From: Candidatus Woesearchaeota archaeon
GTDB lineage: Archaea; Nanobdellota; Nanobdellia; Woesearchaeales; ARS49
Direction: 5' to 3'
Assembly (NCBI GenBank): GCA_016203265.1
Contig: JACQNB010000074.1
Coordinates: 1 to 13,158 of the forward strand
Length of the DNA: 13,158 bases
How positions within the stretch are numbered: position 1 is the stretch's first letter; each line of letters starts with the position of its first letter. A model generated the notes under the pieces. It ran no database searches. It was not told the DNA's origin and worked only from the letters and a program-made list of their open reading frames with translations. Made by a program: the position numbers and the translations under genes. Of this stretch, positions 1,154 through 12,247 are shown piece by piece.

Positions 1154-2170
1154 ATGAGTGACTTCATTAAACGTCTGCAAGCCGAAACATTCGCGTCCAT
1201 CCTCGGACAGGAAGAGACCAAGCGACAGCTCAAGTCCGCACTCTTGATGGACCGTCATGTCATCATTGTCGGACCGCCGGGCATCGGCAAAACGACATTG
1301 GCGAAGAGCGTGGCCGCGCTCTTGCCTGAACTGACCGTGAACGATTGCGACTTCCATTGTGACCCGAAGCATCCCGTGTGTCCTTCGTGCCGTGCCAAGA
1401 AGCCGAAAACCCGCACCATCACGGGCGAGGAACGGTTTGTGCGCGTGCAGGGCAGCCCGGACTTGACTGCCGAGGATTTATTGGGAGACATCGACCCGGT
1501 CAAGGCGTTGAAGTTCGGCCCCACCAGCATGGAAGCGTTCACGCCAGGCAAACTGTTCAAGGCCAACCACGGCATCCTGTTCTTTGACGAATTGAACCGT
1601 GCGCCTGAAAAGTTGCAGAACGCGCTCTTGCAGGTCTTGGAGGAAGGCAAAGCCACCATCGGCAGCTATTCAGTCGATTTGCCGGCAGACTTCATCTTCA
1701 TCGGCACCATGAACCCGGAAGAGACGGCGGCAACAGAGAAATTATCTGACGTGTTTTTGGACCGTTTTGACATCGTGCACATGCACTATCCTGAAACCGT
1801 CGAAATCGAACAGCAAATCGTGCTTGCGCACGGCAAAAAGCTCGATGTTGAGTTCGACTTGACACTGTTGAATCTTGCATTGATGTTTATCAGACTCTTG
1901 AGGCAACACAAAGATGTGCAGCGCAAGCCGTCCGTGCGAGCGTCTTTGGGCGTGTACGAGCGCGCGCAAGCCAACGCATTCCTGGCCAAACGCAAGATGG
2001 TCACGGCCAAGGACGTCGCGGACGCCTTGACGAGCGTCGTCAGCCACCGTCTGGAACTCAAGCCGTCCGCGAAATACCTGCAGACGACCGACCAGTTCGT
2101 CGCCGAACAGTTCAAGCAGTTCGTCCGAGATAATCCCGAATTCGAGGAAGTCGGTGGTGGTGGTCTTTGA
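1154..2170 (+). CDS. MoxR/ChlI-type AAA+ ATPase with cysteine-rich insertion
   Basis: This AAA+ ATPase belongs to the MoxR / magnesium-chelatase subunit I group, which remodels or loads partner complexes together with von Willebrand A proteins. Visible motifs: Walker A GPPGIGKTT (40-48), Walker B ILFFDEL (141-147, D145/E146), sensor 1 GTMNPEE (N187), arginine finger in DVFLDRFD (R204) and a sensor 2 region SVRASLGVYERAQ (R262). Between Walker A and B lies a four-cysteine block, C65-x3-C69-x6-C76-x2-C79, which could bind zinc and resembles the CDP...CP.C insertion I recall from archaeal ChlI-like proteins. The length of 338 aa fits the family. Magnesium chelation is unlikely to be the role, because no large BchH-type subunit is nearby. 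The gene overlaps the downstream vWA gene, its likely partner. Confidence 0.88.
   Translation: MSDFIKRLQAETFASILGQEETKRQLKSALLMDRHVIIVGPPGIGKTTLAKSVAALLPELTVNDCDFHCDPKHPVCPSCRAKKPKTRTITGEERFVRVQGSPDLTAEDLLGDIDPVKALKFGPTSMEAFTPGKLFKANHGILFFDELNRAPEKLQNALLQVLEEGKATIGSYSVDLPADFIFIGTMNPEETAATEKLSDVFLDRFDIVHMHYPETVEIEQQIVLAHGKKLDVEFDLTLLNLALMFIRLLRQHKDVQRKPSVRASLGVYERAQANAFLAKRKMVTAKDVADALTSVVSHRLELKPSAKYLQTTDQFVAEQFKQFVRDNPEFEEVGGGGL
2144..2156 (+). promoter_or_regulatory. Ribosome site and tandem GTG starts of the vWA gene
   Basis: GAGG at 2144-2147 lies 6 bases before GTG 2154 and 9 before GTG 2157, inside the 3' end of the ATPase gene. No ATG occurs near the start of this frame, so one of these GTG codons is the likely start, with translation coupled to the upstream gene. 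Confidence 0.5.
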
Positions 2171-3347
2171 CTCCGTTGCCACCCAGGTTGAACAACTGAG
2201 CGACATCGATGAGGTCGAGGGCAAGCTTGCCACGTCGAAAGACGAAGCATTGATGCACTCGGTCTTGCAGAACGACAAGCAGACGATTGAGGAAGGAAAA
2301 TTAGTCGCGGACGCGTTCAATCGAGGTATTGGTTCGTTCACTCCTGACCTGTTCTTTCAGCAGATGGTCAAGAATTATTCCATGGCACGACAGCTCTTTG
2401 GCGACACGCTGCTTCGCCTGGTGTCCGGGTTTGATCCCAACTACATCGAGAAGAACCTGCCCATCCCCGAATTCAGGAAGCAATTGCTGTTCAACATCCG
2501 GAAAAAGATCGATGTGCTGAAGGACAAGAAGCTGCTGGACGACCAAGGCATGATTTCCGAGAAAGGCGTTGACTTGGCCAGTATGGTATTGTACGTCGAA
2601 GAACTCGACCACCTGATTCCGCGCGGGCTTATCGGCGAACGCGTCGTGAAGAAACGCTCGCAGTACGGCGAGCATGGGCAGGCGCGTGCGTATCGTAAAG
2701 GAGACTTGTACAAGGACGTCAGCGTGCGCAAGAGCGTTCGCATGGCCGTGCGTCGGGGGCATCTTTCAATTGAAGTGCCCGACTTGAAGATTCAAGAGCG
2801 GCAGAGCAAAGGCACCATTTATGTCCTTTATGGCATTGACGCAAGCGCGAGCATGAAAGGGGCGAAGATCGAGACGTGCAAAAAGGCAGGGATTGCGTTG
2901 GCGTACCAGGCATTGCAGCACAAGGACAAAGTTGGTCTTGTGGTGTTTGGGGCTGATGTGAAAAGTTTTGTGCCGCCGACCGATGATTTCACGCAATTGC
3001 TGCGGACGTTGACGACCATTCGCGCGTCGCGCGAGACTGACTTCACTGCTTTAGTTGAGAAATCGATCGAGCTGTTCCCATCCGTTGAAGCCACGAAGCA
3101 CTTGATTATTCTTACCGATGCGATGCCAACGGTCGGAGAGAAGCCGGAAGAGGAGACGCTCGCTGCCGTTTCGAAGGCCGCGGCTGCCGGCATCACGCTT
3201 TCGCTCGTGGGCATCCAACTGGATACCAAAGGCACCAAGCTCGCGAAAGAGATGGTGCGCATCGGCCAAGGTAGATTATACTTGGTTTCGAACCTTTCCG
3301 AGGTCGATAAATTGGTGTTGCAGGATTATGATGCGATTCGTTCTTAA
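2154..3347 (+). CDS. von Willebrand factor A (MIDAS) protein, MoxR partner
   Basis: The C-terminal half (about residue 220 to 397) is a von Willebrand A domain with an intact metal-ion-dependent adhesion site: D229-x-S231-x-S233 in GIDASASM, T295 in the SRETDFTAL stretch, and D322 in ILTDAMPT. The N-terminal 220 residues are helical and charged, with a very basic segment around 165-202, and match nothing I can name. Such proteins work with MoxR ATPases much as BchD works with BchI, presenting a substrate or acting as an activator in the cytoplasm. No signal peptide or membrane helix is seen, which separates it from membrane-anchored BatA/BatB types. The start overlaps the ATPase gene by 17 bases (GTG 2154) or 14 bases (GTG 2157), strong evidence that the two are made together. 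Confidence 0.87.
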   Translation: MVVVFDSVATQVEQLSDIDEVEGKLATSKDEALMHSVLQNDKQTIEEGKLVADAFNRGIGSFTPDLFFQQMVKNYSMARQLFGDTLLRLVSGFDPNYIEKNLPIPEFRKQLLFNIRKKIDVLKDKKLLDDQGMISEKGVDLASMVLYVEELDHLIPRGLIGERVVKKRSQYGEHGQARAYRKGDLYKDVSVRKSVRMAVRRGHLSIEVPDLKIQERQSKGTIYVLYGIDASASMKGAKIETCKKAGIALAYQALQHKDKVGLVVFGADVKSFVPPTDDFTQLLRTLTTIRASRETDFTALVEKSIELFPSVEATKHLIILTDAMPTVGEKPEEETLAAVSKAAAAGITLSLVGIQLDTKGTKLAKEMVRIGQGRLYLVSNLSEVDKLVLQDYDAIRS

Positions 3348-7434: not shown

Positions 7435-8547
7435 TTATTTTATCACATTTTCTTCAAGAAATTTGTCCGTGATGACGCGGATTCTCGCCTGCATCTCATC
7501 GATGCCGTTCACGATATAGGGGATGACGTGGACATTTCGATGGCGTTCCGCAGCCGCGAGATACCCTTGGCGCACCCGTGCATGGAATTCTTGACCTTCG
7601 CGTTCGATCCTGTCGCGGTCGTTGCCAAATTCGCCCACGGCAATTTTTGCTTGGCTGAAATCAACATCAATGATGAACGCAAGGTCAGGCGAGATGCCGT
7701 CTGTCGCCAATTGGTTCAAGGGATCGATTGTTTGCACGCCGAGCTGTCGTCCGAATCCCTGATACGCAAAGGTCGAGAGAAAACTGCGGTCAGTCACCAC
7801 CATGCGTCCTTCGCGCAGATTCGGTTTGATGACTTGATCAAACAATTGTGCACGAGCGGCTTCAAATAAAAACAATTCCGCCAGCGGATGCAAGGGTTCT
7901 TTTTCTCGCGGTGAGAGCAGAACGTTTCTGATGCGTTCTGCTTGCTCTGTTCCGCCCGGTTCTCGGCTTCCGGCAACGTCATATCCTTTTTCTTTGAGAT
8001 ATGCGCTCAAGCGGCCACTTTGCGTACTCTTACCGCAGCCATCGCCACCTTCAACGACGATATAGAGCCCGTTTCTTGGCGGAAGCGCCTTTTGGACGCC
8101 TGAGCAGAACGTTTTGATGATACCTTCAAGATGGTCTTCTGATTCGTAAGGAATAAGTTGCAGATTTGGTGGAGCGCATGACGAATTCGCCCACTGCGTA
8201 ATGTACCACGAAGCGTGATGTGCCTTGTGCCACGTTGCCAAGACGGGCATGCCCGCGCGGATTGCGTAATCGACCTCGGCACCACCGCCCGTGGTCGCGC
8301 CGGAAAGCTCGGCGACAAGCGCCACACTGTTCCGCAACCCGGCGAAATCAAAGTCGTGGACGTTATCAGATTTTCTTTTCTTTCCAACGAATGGATGGTA
8401 GGGATCGTCATCCGCGACATGCGCGCTCGGCACGCGACCAAACTCTTGCATGGTCTTGACGATACGTTTGTACGCGGGTAAAAGCTCAGGCGGCCGTGTC
8501 GTGATCGCGCCCGTGAAATACCATTCCAATGCGCGTTTGATGTTCAT
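7435..8547 (-). CDS. tmk: DNPH1-like deoxynucleotide N-hydrolase fused to thymidylate kinase, 370 aa
   Basis: Two domains. Residues about 8-148 match the nucleoside 2-deoxyribosyltransferase superfamily and specifically resemble DNPH1/Rcl: opening YFTGAI, then YKRIVKTMQEFGRV, HVA, D67 in HDFDF, and VAELSGATTGGGAE with the presumed catalytic E91. DNPH1 splits 5-hydroxymethyl-dUMP and similar dNMPs into base and deoxyribose 5-phosphate. Residues about 158-370 are thymidylate kinase (dTMP + ATP to dTDP): P-loop EGGDGCGKST (166-175), REPGGT (195-200), DRS (253-255) and an arginine-rich lid region at 307-329. The linker between the domains is short. The ATG overlaps the thyX TGA as ATGA, with AGAGGG about 7 bases ahead, so it is the last gene of the dcd-thyX-tmk operon. 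An ordinary Tmk is about 200-215 aa, so the extra 150 residues are a true addition. Confidence 0.9.
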   Translation of the reverse strand: MNIKRALEWYFTGAITTRPPELLPAYKRIVKTMQEFGRVPSAHVADDDPYHPFVGKKRKSDNVHDFDFAGLRNSVALVAELSGATTGGGAEVDYAIRAGMPVLATWHKAHHASWYITQWANSSCAPPNLQLIPYESEDHLEGIIKTFCSGVQKALPPRNGLYIVVEGGDGCGKSTQSGRLSAYLKEKGYDVAGSREPGGTEQAERIRNVLLSPREKEPLHPLAELFLFEAARAQLFDQVIKPNLREGRMVVTDRSFLSTFAYQGFGRQLGVQTIDPLNQLATDGISPDLAFIIDVDFSQAKIAVGEFGNDRDRIEREGQEFHARVRQGYLAAAERHRNVHVIPYIVNGIDEMQARIRVITDKFLEENVIK

Positions 8548-10250
8548 TGCGCCGCCCTCTTGCGGTCTTCGTCCAACGCTCTCCTTTCTTTTGCGGTAGC
8601 ACGTTCCTCGGCGTCCTGACGCCCGCTGGAGGTCTTCGTCATGACTGCGCGTATGTATTTCGCGAAACGAGGCGCGACTTTTTCGATTTCAAGAAATTCC
8701 TCCTGAAACAAGCGACGGTAGGAGAAGTGTCCGGCATCCGGCGTCCGGAGTTCGACAACATAGGATCCCTGACGCGAATGATGTTCGTAGAGCCAACGCC
8801 CGAGGTGCCCCATCGAGGGGATGTAACAAGCATCTTCGGGGAATTCCTGGTACACTTCGTTGTACAACCGGCTCGTCTCTTCCATTAACTGCTCATATTC
8901 TGCCTTGAGCGGCGCGAGTTCGGTTTCGTGTTCAAGGAATTCAGGGTAGGAATATCCCTCATCCGCGCCGATGCGCTGGTGGAGCATGGTGCCGACACGC
9001 TGACGCTTGACGTCGCGTGCCGCACCGTGGTCGATGCAGTACTCAAACAAGAATTGGCCGAGTTTTGTGCCGCGCATCATCAGGTCGTGATCGCCGCGAC
9101 GGCTCAGATATTCGCGGAAGACTTCATCTTTCTGCGCATCGGTGAACCCTTTGACGGCTTGACTGATGGCTTCGAATGATTGGTTCTTCGTGAACTCGTA
9201 GAGCATTCCGGTAATGAGCAGGTCTTCAAGACCGGGCGTCGCATGCAGAAGCGTCGCATGTTTCAGACCGCTGTCACCGCGATGATAGACCGTCGGCGTT
9301 GCGGGAAGCAGACGATCGGTAAGCCCGCCCATTGCCGCAGTCGTCTGTCCGAAGTAGTCGTTCGGCTTCACGTGTTTAAGCAGGCCTGGCGTGATCTTCA
9401 CTCCCTCTTCCCAAATGTGCTTTCCAAGCATCTGCAGTTCTTCCGTCGGGTGGCTCATCATCTGCGAGAGGTGCGTTTCAGCCACGCGTGTGGGCCACGT
9501 CGCGCCCAATGAGGTCGTGAGGCCCAACGGCAAGAAGTAGCGCATCATGTCAAAGGTCTTTGCGGTGAGCGTGCCGGTGAAGGCGCCCTTGTCCTTGAAA
9601 TTCGCGGCCAAAACGATGTTTTCTTCCAACCACTTGCGGACAAATGGTGTCCCGCGCTCGTACGCCACCATGCGCGCGTCGTTCAATGCTTTGGTGCGTG
9701 CGCCAAAACGAGACGCCTGTAGCCGTGGAGGAATCACGACGTCATCGCGGCTGAACGGGATGTATCGCGTCGACTTTTCCTGGTATGCGCCGAGTTCGGG
9801 GTCGGGCATCTCGATGAAATTCGTCGCCGTCTGCGTCACTCCTTCGATGGCGACGCGGAGCATGTCCGCGTCCTTCAGCGAATTGTGCCCGAATTTCACG
9901 CCCCATTTCGCCAGGAATTGCTCGGCGGTCTTGAAAAAGTAATCCAGCTGCATGTCCTTGCTCGATGCGATGACGTCGGCCGCCTGCTCGACCGTGACCA
10001 GCTCATTCTTCGGCCAATCTCCTTTTTCGACTTTTTTCTTCATTTCGTCGAAGACATTGAGGAACCGTTCGCGCATCGAGACCGGTGTGCGGCTGTATTG
10101 GCCGACCAGGAACGTCCAGACGGGAAACGGCATCTTGTCCGTGGGACAATAGATGTTCTTGTCCGTATTCGTGAAGAAATGATCAAGGACAATCTTTTCC
10201 GGCTCGGAAAATGTTCTGTGCTTGACCAATGGCGCTAGTGTTCCTGTCAT
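8544..10250 (-). CDS. thyX: Tandem-domain FAD-dependent thymidylate synthase, 568 aa
   Basis: ThyX makes dTMP from dUMP with methylene-tetrahydrofolate, FAD and NADPH. A standard ThyX is about 220-270 aa; this protein is about twice that and contains two ThyX-like halves. The N-half has GHNS (121-124), YQEKSTRY (156-163, the end of the RHRxxSxNExSxRY signature) and a helix at 238-261. The RHR part is absent; NFIEMPDPELGA occupies that place. The C-half has RRGDHDL (384-390), then RDVKRQR (412-418) in the RHR position but no STRY, and ends with the family-typical ELRTPDAGHFSYR (500-512). So the active-site signature is split over the two halves. A strong GAGGTGA site precedes the ATG, and a basic tail (540-568) is probably disordered. 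It is the middle gene of the thymidylate operon. Confidence 0.87.
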   Translation of the reverse strand: MTGTLAPLVKHRTFSEPEKIVLDHFFTNTDKNIYCPTDKMPFPVWTFLVGQYSRTPVSMRERFLNVFDEMKKKVEKGDWPKNELVTVEQAADVIASSKDMQLDYFFKTAEQFLAKWGVKFGHNSLKDADMLRVAIEGVTQTATNFIEMPDPELGAYQEKSTRYIPFSRDDVVIPPRLQASRFGARTKALNDARMVAYERGTPFVRKWLEENIVLAANFKDKGAFTGTLTAKTFDMMRYFLPLGLTTSLGATWPTRVAETHLSQMMSHPTEELQMLGKHIWEEGVKITPGLLKHVKPNDYFGQTTAAMGGLTDRLLPATPTVYHRGDSGLKHATLLHATPGLEDLLITGMLYEFTKNQSFEAISQAVKGFTDAQKDEVFREYLSRRGDHDLMMRGTKLGQFLFEYCIDHGAARDVKRQRVGTMLHQRIGADEGYSYPEFLEHETELAPLKAEYEQLMEETSRLYNEVYQEFPEDACYIPSMGHLGRWLYEHHSRQGSYVVELRTPDAGHFSYRRLFQEEFLEIEKVAPRFAKYIRAVMTKTSSGRQDAEERATAKERRALDEDRKRAAQ

Positions 10251-10254
10251 CCGT

Positions 10255-10261
10255 TCACCTC
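10255..10261 (-). promoter_or_regulatory. Shine-Dalgarno site of thyX overlapping the dcd stop codon
   Basis: On the minus strand GAGGTGA ends 4 bases before the thyX ATG, and its last three bases are the TGA stop of dcd. A ribosome finishing dcd would stop on the thyX loading site, which implies tight translational coupling. Confidence 0.75.
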
Positions 10262-11406
10262 AGACTTCCTGTTTCTTCTGTCTTGACGACAAACTGCTTC
10301 GGCAGGTTGGGGCCGCGGGGCTGGCCTTGGTAGTTGCCGGCGTAGAGCGCTCGTTCCCCTTTTTCGTCGCAAGGCACTTCCAACATATGGTCATACTGCA
10401 GTACGCAGATCGGTTGGCGGTGCTTGATCGTAAATGGAGCATCGCGGATGCGCATCTCCAAGGTGGCGCAGGCGAAGAAGCCCGAGTCAAAGAAGCCCGC
10501 ATAGTGCGCCCGTCCTTCGGCTGACGTGACGTCGTACGCCATGAGTGTGCCGCACAAGTCTTCCGGGATGAATGCCTTTTCGTACGTCCCCAACAGGTAG
10601 AACACGTCCTTTTCGAGGATGAGTTTCCCATTTCTTGGGCGCTCAATCGGTTCGAAGAATTTTGCCTTTTCTTCGGCAAGTTCCCCTTTTCCCGCGCTCA
10701 AATCAAATTCGACGGATGAGTTGATCTTCGCCCGATACCCCACGATGTCAGCCTCGAGATCAACCGTCAGTTCCAATCCGCCTTTCTTGAACCTTGTAGT
10801 CTTGAGCTCAATCGGACGGTTTTCAGGATCAAGGAGCAATGGGCGTTTCATGTATTCCATCTTGAGCGCGAGCTCATCAACCGGGTTCTCACCATAATGC
10901 AACCGCAACTGGTTCAGGGCGAGCCCTTTCGTGACTTGGACGTTCCAGCTCAGAGGAGTGATTTCAACCCAGCATTTGCGTTTCGCGCCGGGTGTGATCG
11001 TGTCATAGTTGCGTACGCCGTCGACAATGACGCGCGTCAGGCAATCCGCGCGTCCCGTGGTGCTTTTTGGGTTGAACGGGCCGATTAATCCATCCGGCAA
11101 ATCAGCGCCAATGTCCAATTCAATCAGGTAGGTCTGGCCGCGATCGAGCGTTTTTGGTTTGAGCGTGCCAAGATAAAATTCCTCGCGGCTCAATTCTTTG
11201 ATGTTTTCTTCCACAGAACCGATGTGGTCTTCGGGCAAAAAGGCAGCTCGAAGGCGGATGACGCGTTCGCCTAATGGGATGTCCAAGCTGGATGGCTGAA
11301 TGTACGGTTTCGGATCACTATCGCTCGTCAATAGTCCTGCATTGAACGCTTTCAGAATTCTCTGGCGCGGCAGCACTCCGTACTTCTGAGTTGCATATTC
11401 CCCCAT
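10255..11406 (-). CDS. dcd: dCTP deaminase, long double-domain form, 383 aa
   Basis: dCTP deaminase turns dCTP into dUTP, feeding dUMP to thymidylate synthesis. The short bacterial Dcd is about 190 aa. This is the long form, known to me from alphaproteobacteria, with two dUTPase/Dcd-fold halves. The N-half has YIQPSSLDIPLGERVIRLRA (35-54), NPKSTTGRADCLTRVIVDG (112-130; the Ser and Arg are substrate-binding in Dcd), E148 in VEITP (equivalent to the catalytic Glu) and LNQLRL (164-169). The C-half has GTYEKAFIPEDLCG (273-286), YDVTSAEGRAHYAGFFDSGF (291-310) and an ending with YQGQPRGPNLPKQF (359-372). No separate dUTPase gene is in the window, so whether the second half hydrolyses dUTP (as in bifunctional DCD-DUT) is open. 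A TATA box centred 29 bases upstream makes this the first gene of the operon. Confidence 0.9.
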   Translation of the reverse strand: MGEYATQKYGVLPRQRILKAFNAGLLTSDSDPKPYIQPSSLDIPLGERVIRLRAAFLPEDHIGSVEENIKELSREEFYLGTLKPKTLDRGQTYLIELDIGADLPDGLIGPFNPKSTTGRADCLTRVIVDGVRNYDTITPGAKRKCWVEITPLSWNVQVTKGLALNQLRLHYGENPVDELALKMEYMKRPLLLDPENRPIELKTTRFKKGGLELTVDLEADIVGYRAKINSSVEFDLSAGKGELAEEKAKFFEPIERPRNGKLILEKDVFYLLGTYEKAFIPEDLCGTLMAYDVTSAEGRAHYAGFFDSGFFACATLEMRIRDAPFTIKHRQPICVLQYDHMLEVPCDEKGERALYAGNYQGQPRGPNLPKQFVVKTEETGSLR

Positions 11407-11488: not shown

Positions 11489-11509
11489 TCGAGAACGAAC
11501 CGAATGCGC

Positions 11510-12247
11510 ATGCACCTGTCCGAATACGCGACGCTCATCACTGACGCGATGCTACGCAACGAAACCGTCGTGCTGGGCTGCACGTGCTCAATTCGATACT
11601 CGGGCAGAGCCGAAAGCCAGCTCGGACGAGGCGACAGGATCATCCTCATCAAGAGCGACAAGGCCATTTTGGTGCATCAGCCGACCGGCAACGCACCCAT
11701 CAACTACATGAAGCCCGAAACCAGCCACAGCGTTGTCGTTGAAGGCAACCATCTGCTGCTGAAAAGCAAAAATCTGGCGTTGAAAGAGTTCCTCGACGTC
11801 ACGATCGAGCGCATTCACTTCTACAATTCGCACAAGCTCGAAGACTCGCAGACCATCATCGTTGCCGGCACCGAAGAGGACATGAGCAACATGCTGTACG
11901 AGCATCCGGACATGATTGAGGACGGATTCAAGCCCGTTTCACGGGAAGAACAGACCGCGTATGGCTTTATCGACGTGTTCGGCACGGACAAGCACGGCAC
12001 GCTCACCATCGTCGAATGCAAACGCTACTGCGCTGACTTGTCCGCCGTGACGCAACTGCGCCGTTATATCGAGAAAATGATGGTCTCGAAAGGAGTGTCC
12101 AAGATTCGCGGCATCCTTGCCGCACCCAAGATCACCGAAAACGCAGAACAGATGCTCAAGGACTGGGGCTACGAGTTCAAGTCCATCAGGCCACCGAAAT
12201 ACCTGGAAGCATTCGACAAGAAACAGGCAAAACTGGACTTTTTCTAG
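11510..12247 (+). CDS. nucS: NucS/EndoMS mismatch-specific endonuclease, 245 aa
   Basis: NucS (EndoMS) cuts both strands at mismatches such as G-T, G-G and T-T, replacing MutS/MutL-type repair in many archaea and actinobacteria. Numbering from the first ATG (11504; subtract 2 for the chosen start): the N-terminal DNA-binding and dimer domain has SGRAESQLGRGDRIILIK (33-50) and VHQPTGNAPINYMKP. The RecB-like nuclease has GFIDVFG (D157), E171-x-K173 in VECKR, and AVTQLRRY with Q184. The last residues, KKQAKLDFF, resemble a PCNA-interacting (PIP) box but are one residue shorter than QxxLxxFF between Leu and the aromatic pair. ATG 11504 would add Met-Arg but lies too close to the TATA box. The gene is divergent from dcd. 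Confidence 0.92.
   Translation: MHLSEYATLITDAMLRNETVVLGCTCSIRYSGRAESQLGRGDRIILIKSDKAILVHQPTGNAPINYMKPETSHSVVVEGNHLLLKSKNLALKEFLDVTIERIHFYNSHKLEDSQTIIVAGTEEDMSNMLYEHPDMIEDGFKPVSREEQTAYGFIDVFGTDKHGTLTIVECKRYCADLSAVTQLRRYIEKMMVSKGVSKIRGILAAPKITENAEQMLKDWGYEFKSIRPPKYLEAFDKKQAKLDFF

Follow-up and report, generated by a model that had tools for sequence, protein, structure and literature searches.

A DNPH1–thymidylate kinase fusion beside a thymidylate synthase gene in an uncultured archaeon: a possible quality control built into the supply of a DNA building block

What does a nucleotide hydrolase-type domain do when it shares one chain with thymidylate kinase (Tmk)? The question is raised by a stretch of 13,158 nucleotides from a Candidatus Woesearchaeota archaeon (contig JACQNB010000074.1, hereafter the window), in which a single gene encodes a domain of the DNPH1/Rcl type followed by Tmk. 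DNPH1 is a sanitiser of the nucleotide pool and a drug target in animals. The fusion gene lies beside a gene for thymidylate synthase, an arrangement that points to quality control as an integral part of making a DNA building block. With confidence just short of even, we favour the reading that this two-domain enzyme, encoded last in an operon leading from deoxycytidine triphosphate (dCTP) to thymidine diphosphate (dTDP), acts as a cleaning gate for thymidylate synthesis: its DNPH1-type half would remove a deoxypyrimidine monophosphate and spare thymidine monophosphate (dTMP). This reading is supported by the DNPH1 identity of the domain, the kept catalytic triad, the adjacency of a synthase gene, loci in which the same genes are separate, and the presence of the domain in four kinase lineages. 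The features of the fusion are as follows.

7435..8547, minus strand: DNPH1–Tmk fusion gene, 370 amino acids (aa) plus stop (open reading frame (ORF), both domains matched)
8077..8547, minus strand: DNPH1/Rcl-type domain, residues 1–157 (PDB profile search and fold search)
8518..8520, minus strand: Tyr10, equivalent of human DNPH1 Tyr24 (alignment)
8500..8502, minus strand: Thr16, at the position of the base-reading Arg30 of human DNPH1 (alignment)
8419..8424, minus strand: Ala42-His43, at the position of human DNPH1 Glu55-His56 (alignment; roles from an excerpt of PMC10603095)
8347..8349, minus strand: Asp67, equivalent of human DNPH1 Asp80 (alignment)
8275..8277, minus strand: Glu91, equivalent of the human DNPH1 nucleophile Glu104 (alignment)
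8209..8211, minus strand: Ser113, probable equivalent of Ser128, which binds phosphate from the other subunit (by position)
7438..8076, minus strand: dTMP kinase domain, residues 158–370 (PF02223, TIGR00041 and fold)
8023..8049, minus strand: kinase P-loop, residues 167–175 (G167, G170, G172 and K173 invariant)

The original prediction, made from the sequence alone, was of a DNPH1-type N-terminal domain and a full Tmk in one 370-aa chain, and both profile and fold searches confirmed it. The N-domain has the superfamily fold in common with MilB, BlsM and the nucleoside 2-deoxyribosyltransferases. The N-domain was nearest to DNPH1/Rcl within this superfamily in both sequence (PDB profile search) and fold, which rules out its assignment as a nucleoside 2-deoxyribosyltransferase. 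Neither a best match to plain transferases nor a missing catalytic Asp or Glu was found for the window protein: the catalytic Tyr, Asp and Glu are present by alignment as Y10, D67 and E91. The kinase half matched TIGR00041 at 156.5 bits (curated cut-off, 83.25) over positions 3–195 of 196. The window protein thus has in common with bacterial-type thymidylate kinases a complete kinase domain, to which it adds an N-terminal glycosidase-type domain. The fusion is the sole PF02223 match in the host genome, and its kinase half is predicted by homology to phosphorylate dTMP.

Residues were mapped by alignment onto human DNPH1, with their roles taken from an excerpt of PMC10603095. The window protein keeps the triad Y10, D67 and E91 together with H43, the equivalent of His56, which in human DNPH1 takes part in base recognition alongside Arg30. 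Compared with human and rat DNPH1, apart from the fusion to Tmk, it has T16 and S60 in place of the base-recognition pair R30/D73, Thr in place of the phosphate-binding Ser98 and Ala42 in place of Glu55 in the LTEHV motif. Ser113 adjoins the start of helix 114–120 in the predicted structure model; its column holds Ser in 11 of 13 rows, Thr in one and Gly in one, and it matches Ser128 by position only.

We then tallied these positions in 19 fused and 29 stand-alone rows, a set that leaves out stand-alone hits below 33 bits (12 of 31 non-fused ORFs) and the broken L160 ORF; P0013 and L142 are the same protein, counted once and identical to the fusion of genome G005, from the same family as the window. 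Among the fused rows, Tyr24 was kept in 18, Asp80 in 17, Glu104 in 18, His56 in 14, Glu55 in 13 and Arg30 in one. All 29 stand-alone rows kept Tyr24, Asp80 and Glu104, while His56 was kept in 25, Glu55 in 27 and Arg30 in 23. Since the triad is mostly retained in the fusions and Arg30 mostly lost, the chemistry appears to have been kept and the base reading changed. The retention of Arg30, Glu55 and His56 in the stand-alone copies indicates that an ordinary DNPH1 seems to be present in these archaea too; most such copies (L147–L166, L226–L235) keep the human active-site residues.

The genes upstream of the fusion were identified next.

8544..10250, minus strand: long ThyX of 568 aa with two Thy1 stretches (PF02511, 1.3e-14), overlapping the fusion gene by 4 bp
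10255..11406, minus strand: dcd, two-domain dCTP deaminase of 383 aa (PF06559, PF22569), with a 4-bp gap to thyX

The order on the minus strand, dcd, thyX and then the fusion gene, makes the operon a path from dCTP through deoxyuridine monophosphate (dUMP) and dTMP to dTDP. ThyA (PF00303) was not found in the host genome, which is 74% complete and likewise gave no archaeal small-subunit (16S) rRNA match. A thymidylate synthase gene was adjacent to the fusion in all eight readable fusion loci, with Thy1 immediately upstream in the same orientation in the window and in L142, L143, L144, L145, L146 and L224. Thy1 was also found next to or near 3 of the 29 stand-alone DNPH1 loci (>40 bits; genomes G139, G510 and G497) with a second profile, the first having given 2 of 29; because some contigs are short, 3 of 29 is a lower bound. 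ThyA was beside none of the 29. In G139, ThyX, dihydrofolate reductase (DHFR), serine hydroxymethyltransferase (SHMT), Tmk, DNPH1, a small kinase and dCMP deaminase are all encoded in the same direction; so are DNPH1, ThyX and Tmk in G510, and in G497 DNPH1 stands back to back with ThyX and Tmk. The Arg30 position of stand-alone DNPH1 beside ThyX is Thr in L159, Phe in L234 and Arg in L228, and the proposal that copies near ThyX always lack Arg30 was dropped because of L228.

The survey of archaeal genomes that had been proposed showed that the fusion recurs. In the first protein search, 13 full-length fusions, the window protein included, were among the matches listed. A second search, seeded with five divergent fusions, listed 20 proteins, among them eight of 370–402 aa with 88–100% query coverage (P0133–P0137, P0140, P0142 and P0143, taken as fusions from their length and coverage; P0133 is encoded by G404). 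Within the order, the DNPH1-domain profile matched 36 of 352 genomes, and the domain was fused to Tmk in six (G000, G005, G020, G090, G260 and G306). A phylum-wide draw (40 of 371 genomes, overlapping the order set) added fusions in G404 and G422, of the same class. These many separate homologues rule out an assembly artefact. As no relative was confirmed in two IMG/VR scans, a viral origin was rejected; none of 267 matching phage records reached 80% query coverage, and each of the 20 listed matched from residue 129 or later. A scan of named-genome contigs gave no fusion, and among the best 80 loci no match began before residue 95. A role as a defence system was also discarded, as the kinase half alone matched (PDC-M51B, 1.5e-11).

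In a tree of 53 kinase domains, in which the longer L236 was used in place of L018 in the second run, the 19 fused kinases fell in four clades and required at least four changes. Forcing them into one clade cost 230.6 log units (approximately unbiased (AU) test, p 5.8e-33), and the kinase of G497 was sister to one fused group. A single branch set the DNPH1 halves apart (88/86 in a tree of 48 rows, with P0011 and L166 left out; 91/62 in an earlier tree of 38 rows). The placing of L144, L145 and L146 is unsure because their branches are long. Plain descent of the entire fusion from a single origin is rejected by the kinase tree, leaving either repeated fusion of similar DNPH1 domains or repeated kinase replacement in an old fusion.

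Judging from the fold and the kept residues, the DNPH1-type half would bind a 2'-deoxynucleoside 5'-monophosphate and cleave off the base via a covalent intermediate on Glu91, with Asp67 assisting. It may spare dTMP and remove a deoxypyrimidine monophosphate that the kinase could pass to the triphosphate pool. Tmk enzymes phosphorylate dUMP weakly, and dUMP, being made by this pathway, is one candidate substrate; an equal candidate is 5-hydroxymethyl-dUMP (hmdUMP), which might arise from thymidylate synthase intermediates taking up water. The hmdUMP idea has a chemical basis, since ThyX intermediates were recovered as hydroxymethyl-dUMP after acid quench (excerpts of PMC3498832 and PMC4913046) and human DNPH1 prefers 5hmdUMP (52,380 per M per s) to dUMP (27 per M per s; excerpt of PMC10483697). 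The presence of Ala in place of the Glu that frees the intermediate may make hydrolysis slow in this species. In human DNPH1, according to the excerpt of PMC10603095, E55A slowed turnover approximately 150-fold and trapped the covalent intermediate, with a burst equal to the enzyme, while R30A cost only approximately sixfold.

The idea that Ala42 means a dead enzyme was dropped, as Ala also occupies position 55 in 9 of the 12 DNPH1-like proteins listed by a protein search (11 of the 12 being stand-alone); the search takes its candidates from sequences with words in common with the query and may favour the Ala motif. Nine stand-alone DNPH1-like proteins (P0122–P0130) carry SAHVAD against human TEHVA with the rest of the site intact, and offer a natural experiment on what Glu55 does. 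The window protein shares Ala42 with P0002, to which it is 82.8% identical in the N-domain and 72.8% in the kinase; this higher conservation of the N-domain suggests that it is still under constraint there.

Several observations weigh against a cleaning gate. T16/S60 and Ala42 weaken the claim for hmdUMP, without refuting it, given the small cost of R30A and the frequency of Ala at position 55. Of the 19 fused rows, 18 lack Arg30, which only the degenerate P0011 keeps, and 6, the window included, lack Glu55. Not every member of the fusion can be active: in P0011 the entire active site, with Tyr, His, Asp and Glu, has gone, and L144 is without the catalytic Asp. Recovery of hydroxymethyl-dUMP after an acid quench is no demonstration that ThyX releases it in cells. 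The fusion in L225 lies 118 bp from ThyA and DHFR on the opposite strand, not beside ThyX, and a ThyX-only rule for fusion neighbours was abandoned because G422 has ThyA. Among 27 plain tmk loci of the order, taken as a control, 14 had a synthase gene within 1.5 kb (Thy1 in 10, ThyA in 4), so the adjacency is in part a general tendency of tmk, and what links DNPH1 to it is the fusion itself and the three separate-gene loci; the difference from 8 of 8 in the fusions gave a one-sided Fisher p of 0.014, only a guide because the rows are related. Finally, G001, of the same genus, has dcd, thyX and a plain tmk with no DNPH1 match, and the domain therefore seems dispensable there. The original prediction of proofreading within thymidylate synthesis is thus partly supported, by the DNPH1 type, the catalytic residues, the fusion to Tmk, its recurrence and the synthase adjacency, while its hmdUMP specificity was weakened by T16/S60, Ala42 and the degenerate P0011 and L144.

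A known system for comparison is DmtZ-DutZ of PurZ0 phages, which, like the window protein, has an N-terminal DNPH1-like domain on another enzyme of nucleotide metabolism and purges a competing nucleotide; 77 of 85 dmtZ genes are fused in these phages, and a change of DmtZ Asp12 abolished activity (excerpt of PMC12884076). Unlike the window protein, whose partner is Tmk, it has a dUTPase-like partner and dAMP as substrate, and is phage rather than archaeal, as described in the excerpt. The DmtZ Asp lies six residues after the catalytic Tyr, which by our reckoning of the spacing is the Arg30 position; the window has Thr16 there, so the DmtZ-DutZ type is not matched.

Alternatively, the N-domain may bind a nucleotide with little or no hydrolysis, sensing dUMP or dTMP, tying subunits together or docking the kinase to ThyX. 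We regard this as unlikely, though as the most serious rival. In its favour, the Glu55 equivalent is missing from 6 of 19 fused rows, compared with 2 of 29 stand-alone rows, and P0011, whose kinase remains similar, lacks Tyr, His, Asp and Glu (identity to the window, 29.8% in the N-domain and 55.7% in the kinase). Against it, the residues of the triad, which pure binding does not require, each persist in 17 or 18 of the 19 fused rows, and 9 of the 12 listed proteins likewise have Ala at position 55. Residues 1–160 of P0011 are likely a pseudoenzyme domain. An improbable explanation is salvage, in which base and deoxyribose 5-phosphate would be recovered from surplus deoxynucleoside monophosphates with no editing, the fusion merely co-expressing the domain; DNPH1 enzymes do release these two products (excerpt of PMC10483697), yet the synthase gene beside the fusion in 8 of 8 readable loci marks a synthetic rather than a degradative setting. 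Transferase activity, by which a long-lived covalent intermediate would hand deoxyribose 5-phosphate to another base (for example, dUMP and thymine giving dTMP), appears very improbable: Ala42 replaces the Glu that admits water, but Glu55 is kept in 13 of 19 fused rows, and the positions of Thr16 and Asp67 in the window are occupied by Asp12 and Asn77 in DmtZ (our equivalence, by spacing and triad).

Other features were observed around these loci. A small P-loop kinase gene adjoins, or in L145 is fused with, dCMP deaminase near three DNPH1 loci (L145:12476-13501, L146:8586-9571 and L159:9033-10141). In the long ThyX of the window, L142–L146 and L159 the signature is split, with S-x-R-Y in the first half and RHR in the second; the window has STRY at 160, and RQR replaces RHR in the window and L144. 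G001 carries a 619-aa dcd ORF (L236:2523-4382), in which Pfam matches stop at residue 378 and the long C-terminal part is unmatched. Divergent from the dcd-thyX-fusion operon, at window positions 11504-12247 on the plus strand, is a NucS endonuclease gene that fits the NCBI model PRK04247 (248 bits; cut-off, 216). NucS of this type is archaeal. A MoxR-type AAA ATPase gene overlaps a VWA-domain gene at 1154-3347, also on the plus strand.

No paper on a DNPH1–Tmk fusion was found in the open-licence PMC literature, and where databases name the listed fusion proteins, the names are dTMP kinase, thymidylate kinase or hypothetical protein; on these grounds both the domain architecture and the setting of this known enzyme family are new. 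More tentatively than the cleaning gate itself, we propose that several archaeal lineages built a proofreading thymidylate kinase around one DNPH1 subfamily and four kinases, so that hmdUMP or dUMP, as a deoxyuridylate that leaks out or competes, would be destroyed before phosphorylation and pool editing would be physically part of precursor synthesis. Through fusion and neighbouring genes, archaeal relatives of DNPH1 are here tied to both thymidylate synthase and thymidylate kinase, which raises a testable question: does the flavin-dependent thymidylate synthase leak hydroxymethyl-dUMP that cells edit out before phosphorylation? If so, the pool-cleaning principle of phage DmtZ-DutZ would extend to the cell's own synthesis of DNA precursors.
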